Assembly: GCA_005879605.1 (NCBI GenBank)
Contig: VBKE01000001.1
Span: forward strand, 1 to 64,000
Direction: 5' to 3'
Length of the DNA stretch: 64,000 nucleotides
Origin: Deltaproteobacteria bacterium
GTDB lineage: Bacteria > Desulfobacterota > Binatia > UBA9968
The notes below the pieces were generated by a model that was given only the letters and a program-made list of their open reading frames with translations, was not told where the DNA came from and did not search any database. How positions within the stretch are numbered: the stretch's first letter is position 1; each line of letters opens with the position of its first letter. Below, in pieces: positions 39,593 through 40,786 of this stretch. The position numbers were made by a program, and so were the translations under genes.

Positions 39593-39617
39593 TGCACTGA
39601 AGTAGGGAGGTTTTGTC

Positions 39618-40127
39618 ATGAACCAAACCATTGGACGGCGATTTCCGGATTTTGAACTGACCGATCATGACGGCCAGATCGTCAAACTCTCGCAATTCGC
39701 CGGGAAGTTTCCCCTGATCGTGACCTTTTATCGCGGCTACTGGTGAGGAAAATGCCAGGTGCAGTTGCGCCACTATGTCGAATTTCAAAAAGAGCTGGCG
39801 ATCAATTACTGCAAGCTCGTTGTCGCGAGCGTCGATCCGCCGGAGGTAAACGCGGCCCTTCGCGCCGGCCTCGACGCTGAATTTCCGTTCTTGAGCGATC
39901 ACGACCGAAAAGTCGTTCAAGCGTTGGATATGACTGAGACTTCCAAGAGTCGTGGCGTTACGGCGATTCCTTACACTTTCTCCTTGATGCCTGATTTGAC
40001 CGTGCACAACATTTATTGCGGTTACTGGTACGTCGGACGACCGACATTGGATGAATTGCGCATGGATCTGCGGGCGATGATGAAGAAAGTCCGTAGCGAC
40101 TTCGATCCCCAGGCCAAAGGCGAATGA
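39618..40127 (+). CDS. Selenocysteine-containing AhpC/TSA (peroxiredoxin-like) protein
   Basis: A 169-residue thioredoxin-fold protein of the AhpC/TSA group if the in-frame TGA at 39744-39746 is read as selenocysteine. Before it the frame encodes IGRRFPDFELTDHDGQIVKL and FPLIVTFYRGYW; after it comes GKCQVQLRHYVEF. Relatives have Cys at this exact place (FYRGxWCxxC), so Sec43 would replace the peroxidatic/active-site Cys in a UxxC pair with Cys46. A hairpin compatible with a bacterial SECIS lies 11 bases downstream. The ATG follows GGGAGG. Protein-like sequence continues to the TGA stop at 40127. The alternative is a cysteine-to-stop pseudogene. Confidence 0.85.
39744..39771 (+). promoter_or_regulatory. 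Candidate bSECIS: recoded TGA and downstream hairpin
   Basis: The TGA (39744-39746) is followed by GGTGC (39758-39762) and GCGCC (39767-39771), a 5-bp stem (one G-U pair) with loop AGTT. A G at loop position 2 and a UGA-to-loop distance of 16 bases match the published bacterial SECIS consensus for SelB recruitment. Confidence 0.6.
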
Positions 40128-40179: not shown

Positions 40180-40437
40180 ATGATGATTACACCAGAAGAG
40201 ATTAAAGAGACGTTAGCAAAAGTATTGCCGGCTTCCTTGATTGAGACCCAAGACCTCACCGGCGGCGGTGATCACTGGCAGGTAATCATTGTCTCACCAG
40301 CTTTTGAGGGCAGAGGGTTACTAGAACAGCAACGGATGGTCAACGATGCACTCAAAGAAGCTATGAATTCAGAACGCATCCATGCGCTTACCATGAAACT
40401 GTACACACCAGCTCAATGGGAAAAGCTCGGATCCTGA
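40180..40437 (+). CDS. BolA family protein
   Basis: An 85-residue BolA-like protein: MITPEEIKETLAKVLPASLI, then DLTGGGDHWQVIIVSPAFEG, LEQQRMVNDALKEAMNSERI and HALTMKLYTPAQWEKL. BolA proteins pair with monothiol glutaredoxins in iron-sulfur cluster handling; the ligand histidine (HAL near residue 69) is present. The monothiol glutaredoxin gene follows 25 bases later, giving the classical BolA-Grx4 pair. Two adjacent ATGs are possible starts. Confidence 0.93.
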   Translation: MMITPEEIKETLAKVLPASLIETQDLTGGGDHWQVIIVSPAFEGRGLLEQQRMVNDALKEAMNSERIHALTMKLYTPAQWEKLGS

Positions 40438-40462: not shown

Positions 40463-40786
40463 ATGGCAGACGAAATTTTGACCCAGATCGATGAGAAAGT
40501 AAAAAAGAATAAAGTCATGCTCTACATGAAAGGAACGCCGGATTTTCCCCAATGCGGCTTCTCGGCACATACCGTGGAGATTCTAAAGTCCTACGGTGTT
40601 CCGTTCGCGAGTGAAGATGTGCTAGCCGATCCCACGGTTCGGGAAGGGATCAAGCGTTACTCCAATTGGCCGACCATCCCGCAGATCTACATAGACGGGA
40701 AATTCGTCGGCGGCTGCGATATTCTCCACGAGCTGCACGAGAGAGGCGAGCTCGAACCGATTTTGAACGCAGCGTTCGGTAAGTAG
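40463..40786 (+). CDS. grxD: Monothiol glutaredoxin (Grx4 type)
   Basis: A 107-residue CGFS glutaredoxin: VMLYMKGTPDFPQCGFSAHT carries the CGFS active site near residue 32, and NWPTIPQIYIDGKFVGGCDI holds the glutathione-binding TIPQ and GGCD segments. This class binds a [2Fe-2S] cluster with glutathione and delivers it with BolA partners. It starts behind GGAAGGAG and directly follows bolA, consistent with co-translation. The selenoprotein gene lies two genes upstream. Confidence 0.96.
   Translation: MADEILTQIDEKVKKNKVMLYMKGTPDFPQCGFSAHTVEILKSYGVPFASEDVLADPTVREGIKRYSNWPTIPQIYIDGKFVGGCDILHELHERGELEPILNAAFGK

Follow-up and report, generated by a model that had tools for sequence, protein, structure and literature searches.

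Evidence for a peroxiredoxin-like selenoprotein gene with a conserved SECIS hairpin next to bolA in a Candidatus Binatia genome

We analysed a 64,000-nucleotide stretch of a Candidatus Binatia genome (the window), in which a single gene for an AhpC/TSA-fold protein, here termed SecPrx, contains one internal TGA and is followed on the same strand by bolA and a glutaredoxin gene. The features of the locus, all on the forward strand, are as follows.

39604-39610, forward strand: ribosome-binding site AGGGAGG, 7 nt before the ATG (read from the sequence)
39618-40127, forward strand: predicted selenoprotein gene, AhpC/TSA-fold (peroxiredoxin-like), 169 aa (Pfam, orthologues, AlphaFold2 model)
39744-39746, forward strand: in-frame TGA, predicted Sec43, at the N-terminus of helix 44-62 (48 TGA and 11 Cys among 59 homologues; helix limits from the model)
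39753-39755, forward strand: codon of Cys46, putative partner of Sec43, Asp or Glu in most non-Binatia relatives (sequence comparison)
39758-39771, forward strand: predicted bSECIS apical stem-loop GGUGC-AGUU-GCGCC (codon invariance, covariation, largely lost in Cys homologues)
40180-40437, forward strand: bolA (PF01722, 3.6e-17)
40463-40786, forward strand: monothiol CGFS glutaredoxin of the Grx4/GrxD type (PF00462, 1.2e-21; C-G-F-S read in the ORF)

The frame of SecPrx starts at ATG 39618, stays open past the TGA at 39744-39746 and ends at a terminal TGA at 40125-40127, so that read-through would give a product of 169 aa with the active-site string W-Sec43-G-K-Cys46. The Pfam AhpC-TSA domain (PF00578) spans residues 5-129, on both sides of the TGA (E=2.2e-21; 76.5 bits against a cut-off of 26). 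A preliminary description of the locus, made from the sequence, had reported one TGA interrupting an AhpC/TSA-like frame with a good ribosome site upstream and a normal stop, and each of these points holds; a purine-rich stretch is also present at the position of the ribosome site in many orthologues. A mechanical ORF with a GTG start (39759-40127, 122 aa) lies inside the gene, and a gene caller lacking selenocysteine support would annotate this fragment and miss the active site. Genome-wide recoding of TGA was rejected, since SecPrx and bolA both terminate in TGA. Scanning the whole window for other frames that are broken by a TGA and carry both a redox motif and a hairpin yielded no further convincing case.

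An orthologue with TGA at the same codon was found in 30 of the 35 genomes of the order (G000-G034), with protein identities of 60-88%. Ahead of the TGA stands FYRGYW or YYRGYW, behind it GKC, PKC or AKC, and the downstream frame is kept among the orthologues, in agreement with the original account of the flanks as conserved and in one frame. A genome-collection scan with two short peptide patterns, whose taxonomic spread and Sec/Cys proportions are samples and not a census, added homologues from Rokubacteria, Acidobacteriota, Planctomycetota, Chloroflexota, Nitrospirota, KSB1, Neomarinimicrobiota, Poribacteria, SAR324, Spirochaetota, Deinococcota and Actinomycetota. These share the motif RG-x-[YFW]-[U or C]-P-[KR]-[D/E/C], with TGA in 18 and TGC or TGT in 11. 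The 59 homologues together thus have TGA (48) or Cys (11) at the same column; codon 43 is never TAA or TAG among the 48, and only Cys codons replace TGA. The tree of homologues requires at least five Sec/Cys changes. We conclude from this distribution and the repeated changes that the residue-43 column is a genuine Sec/Cys column, and the exchange anticipated there by the preliminary description does occur. Further Cys homologues are found on cyanobacterial and rhizobial plasmids. One gene on a Calothrix brevissima plasmid (L115:1486-2319; BAY66630.1) is annotated as a 'cold shock protein', but the first part of the gene codes for a Cys homologue (FYRGFFCPRD).

The TGA lies one base away from TGC and the data come from a MAG, which would fit a mutated TGC or TGT in a pseudogene, or a base miscalled in sequencing or assembly. 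We give this explanation almost no probability. Same-codon TGA recurs in the 30 genomes of the order, which come from many projects, and in 18 other homologues, mostly from other phyla; the downstream reading frame is conserved and synteny is intact. Sequencing error and pseudogene were both rejected on the independent same-codon orthologues, 29 of which exclude the base error at 39744-39746 that the preliminary description had named as one of two findings that would overturn the selenocysteine assignment.

The hairpin downstream of the TGA has a 5-bp stem (5′ strand GGTGC, 39758-39762; 3′ strand GCGCC, 39767-39771), a 4-nt loop (AGTT, 39763-39766), 16 nt between UGA and loop and a folding energy of -8.0 kcal/mol. 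It satisfies the constraints of the published bSECIS model, namely a loop of 3-9 nt with a G at one of its first two positions, a stem of 4-16 bp and a distance of 16-37 nt (PMC13188914). The folding energy is no better than chance (z of -1.4 for a 24-nt segment and -0.3 to -0.5 for longer segments), and under a synonymous-codon null any bSECIS-like hairpin arose at a rate of 14% and an AGTT-loop hairpin at this place at 1.8%. We dropped energy as evidence for the hairpin because of the unremarkable z and the 14% obtained by synonymous chance. Rfam searches around the TGA returned sub-threshold chance matches only.

Comparison among homologues was more informative. In an alignment of 29 orthologues, 60 columns hold a conserved residue that more than one codon can encode: codons 48-51 (V48, Q49, L50 and R51), which form the hairpin, are invariant in 29 of 29, as against none of the 56 other testable columns, and the chance that the invariant codons would be exactly the hairpin's four is about 2e-6. 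Across phyla, 46 of the 48 Sec homologues have an AGUU loop at the identical 16-nt distance on a stem 5 bp or longer, the other two (Rokubacteria) having GUGCC-AGUUGC-GGCAC. The stem sequence varies among phyla (GGUGC/GCGCC, CGUC/GACG, UCGCC/GGCGA, GUUCUCC/GGAGAAC), with the five inner pairs 100% paired and both sides changed in 10-13 of 32 distinct sequences for four of them; the outer two of seven possible pairs are absent in many Binatia. The stem covariation score was 0.647 compared with 0.173 in shuffles (0 of 500), and the signal vanished when the stem was slid by 1-3 columns. Since the shuffle control ignores relatedness, the argument is carried by the slid control and by the Cys forms, in which the hairpin is largely lost (40% paired cells versus 83%). 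These comparative lines of evidence (codon invariance, covariation and decay in Cys homologues) show that the SECIS hairpin is real, and the GGTGC-AGTT-GCGCC element proposed at the outset is borne out by its conservation in orthologues and covariation across phyla. In two Cys homologues from Acidobacteria and Chloroflexi (L086 and L093), a partly pairing hairpin persists after the TGT or TGC codon; these are apparently decayed SECIS elements, as expected after a change from Sec to Cys.

The source genome (G000) is a MAG of 6.6 Mb in 581 contigs, 94% complete with 7% contamination. All components of the selenocysteine machinery sought are present: selA (612 bits), selB (400 bits) and selD (388 bits), all above cut-off, are adjacent on contig C53, and a tRNA-Sec with anticodon TCA lies on contig C565 (78 bits; ARAGORN). 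We regard the sel operon as native and not contamination, because its SelB is of Binatia type and shares 68-75% identity with SelBs from elsewhere in its family. The locus thus combines an in-frame UGA within a conserved ORF and Cys homologues with a genome that has selA, selB, selD and tRNA-Sec, as looked for in a bacterial selenoprotein gene. No selB above cut-off was detected in four fragmented MAGs of the order with the TGA gene (G005, G011, G023, in one search only, and G025), most simply and probably an assembly gap.

These observations also bear on whether the TGA is a true stop followed by a restart at GTG 39759, which would leave the protein split or truncated. The mechanical ORF from that GTG is what such a restart would use, but the resulting product would be cut inside helix 44-62 and be left without its active site. 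Moreover, a plain stop is hard to reconcile with a TGA that never appears as TAA or TAG and is swapped solely for Cys codons, with a covarying hairpin and with the full machinery. We rejected restart at GTG 39759 on these grounds and consider it extremely improbable.

We next consider where the predicted selenocysteine lies in the fold. In the AlphaFold2 model (pLDDT 91.9), residue 43 comes immediately before helix 44-62, at the first-Cys position of the thioredoxin CxxC. Alignment to solved BCP/PrxQ-type peroxiredoxins puts residue 43 on the Thr/Ser of [T/S]xxC and residue 46 on the peroxidatic Cys. Thus, the TGA stands at the reactive-Cys site, as the preliminary description held, when judged against the family's own Cys homologues, but not at the classical peroxidatic position. 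Compared with a canonical peroxiredoxin, the protein has the fold but lacks PxxxTxx[C/U]: Sec falls on the Thr/Ser and there is no PxxxT before Cys46. The proposed UxxC redox pair likewise stands in Binatia (W-U-G-K-C) but not as a family constant. Cys46 is confined to Binatia and two Rokubacteria, with Asp or Glu elsewhere, and the wider family (Acidobacteriota, Chloroflexota, Planctomycetota, Poribacteria and others) reads U/C-P-K-D. Because of this restricted distribution of Cys46, we take Sec/Cys43 to be the constant redox residue of the family. A second Cys, C65 (39810-39812, NYC), is nearly invariant family-wide, including in UxxD members. As a candidate second resolving Cys it lies at the far end of the helix, and some members of one Binatia family have Ser instead.

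The best PDB fold matches (Foldseek E about 1e-12, TM 0.7-0.8) are BCP/PrxQ, Prx6 and AhpE, followed by ResA, which is also among the sequence matches. This leaves a functional question within the selenoprotein assignment, namely whether the protein is a thiol-disulfide oxidoreductase of thioredoxin/ResA-like type and no peroxidase. A UxxC at the thioredoxin position, Sec on the Thr/Ser of [T/S]xxC(P), Asp in most relatives at the peroxidatic column (position 46) and the ResA matches point in that direction, whereas the top fold matches are peroxidases and UxxD members would be incapable of CxxC-type exchange alone. We put the oxidoreductase function at somewhat less than an even chance.

Prx-like UxxC selenoproteins (PF00578) were already recognised in the Sargasso Sea and GOS surveys (PMC1088965, PMC2398784), and current catalogues list them (PMC13188914, PMC9312934). 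The window gene resembles these Prx-like thiol:disulfide oxidoreductase selenoproteins (UxxC/UxxU; 'Prx-like 1' of the ocean surveys) in its AhpC-TSA domain, in having Sec first in UxxC with a bSECIS right after the UGA, and in having Cys homologues at that column, whereas its wider family differs in the partner Asp (UxxD). The window protein has both the AhpC-TSA domain and the UxxC motif, and the gene belongs by domain and motif to the Prx-like UxxC class, whose curated representative is WP_010940744.1. 'UxxD' is absent from both selenoprotein reviews searched, and in the literature searched we found no paper pairing UxxD with a selenoprotein or linking Binatota with selenoproteins. The window protein stays below the cut-off of every NCBIfam model. 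The best match, the SelL-related redox protein NF040769, is matched weakly by 43 of 44 family members and gives 36.2 bits for the window protein against a cut-off of 120, which by this measure places it outside that family. PrxU (TxxU, NF040737; 20 bits against a cut-off of 270) shares the peroxiredoxin fold and selenoprotein nature but has Sec at the peroxidatic-Cys position, and the window Sec lies three residues earlier. PrxQ/BCP, Prx6 and AhpE, though closest to the query in fold (TM about 0.7-0.8), are only about 13-22% identical, and the window's wider family is without a conserved peroxidatic Cys (Asp46). The window gene is thus a so far uncatalogued selenoprotein of a known Prx-like kind, possibly with a new subfamily around it.

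The adjoining bolA and CGFS glutaredoxin genes noted at the outset were confirmed by PF01722, PF00462 and the C-G-F-S motif. In the window's family the conserved order is SDR, (NMT1-like ABC substrate-binding protein), SecPrx, bolA and CGFS grx. Among loci of this family extending further downstream there are two exceptions, L068 with neither gene and L065 with both about 4 kb away. Where a Binatia locus reaches far enough downstream, bolA is almost always close to the orthologue; the other family of Binatia (52-54% identity) has it within about 2 kb downstream, and grx was not detected near the orthologue there. Loci outside Binatia showed no shared neighbour gene, and the BolA/Grx linkage is absent there. 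Synteny makes it reasonable to propose a functional tie between SecPrx and the BolA-Grx4 iron-sulfur/redox module.

Taken together, we consider it nearly certain that 39618-40127 is a genuine selenoprotein gene, in which SelB and the hairpin would direct insertion of Sec43 into a peroxiredoxin/thioredoxin-fold redox protein. During translation, SelB with Sec-tRNA(Sec) and GTP would bind the AGUU-loop hairpin 16 nt past the UGA and selenocysteine would be inserted at residue 43, as suggested by the machinery, hairpin and conservation. The product would be a soluble protein, probably with enzymatic activity, and its Sec selenolate, located where the first active-site helix begins, would act as the family's constant nucleophile. 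In Binatia and two Rokubacteria, Sec43 probably pairs with Cys46 (UxxC), and because of this pairing the most likely cycle runs through a selenenylsulfide that either thioredoxin or a glutathione/glutaredoxin route would resolve; in phyla with Asp46 the resolving thiol would have to lie elsewhere or be supplied by another protein. The fixed linkage with bolA and CGFS glutaredoxin suggests a role in Binatia serving the BolA-Grx module, perhaps a peroxide- or disulfide-reducing one that protects or signals to its iron-sulfur function. More tentatively, and with slightly less than even confidence, we propose an uncatalogued multi-phylum Prx-like family, RGx[YFW]-U-P-K-[D/C], with an AGUU SECIS at a fixed 16 nt family-wide, consisting mostly of one-Sec UxxD enzymes, in which UxxC is lineage-specific and the Binatia enzyme is dedicated to the BolA-CGFS glutaredoxin module.

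Standard annotation truncates the gene at the UGA and thereby overlooks, across the class Binatia, the active site of this conserved redox protein. The family also offers a natural experiment, with a one-column Sec/Cys switch and SECIS presence or decay alongside it. The U-C and U-D active sites within one family form a biochemically testable contrast, and the bolA and CGFS glutaredoxin neighbourhood would allow a connection of selenium with iron-sulfur homeostasis to be tested.

Other genes of the source genome also have in-frame TGA codons. selD has one at L056:5579-5581 (KAAG-TGA-AAK), and SelD is itself likely to be a selenoprotein. Three further AhpC/TSA-type genes are likely to encode additional Prx-like selenoproteins: one at L052:856-858 (+), with FYRGHW-TGA-LLC and, 16 nt beyond the TGA, a loop that contains AGTT; one in L053, with the TGA at 1254 of the reverse complement (FYRGHW-TGA-PYC); and one at L054:921-923 (+), with FYRGRW-TGA-PWC.
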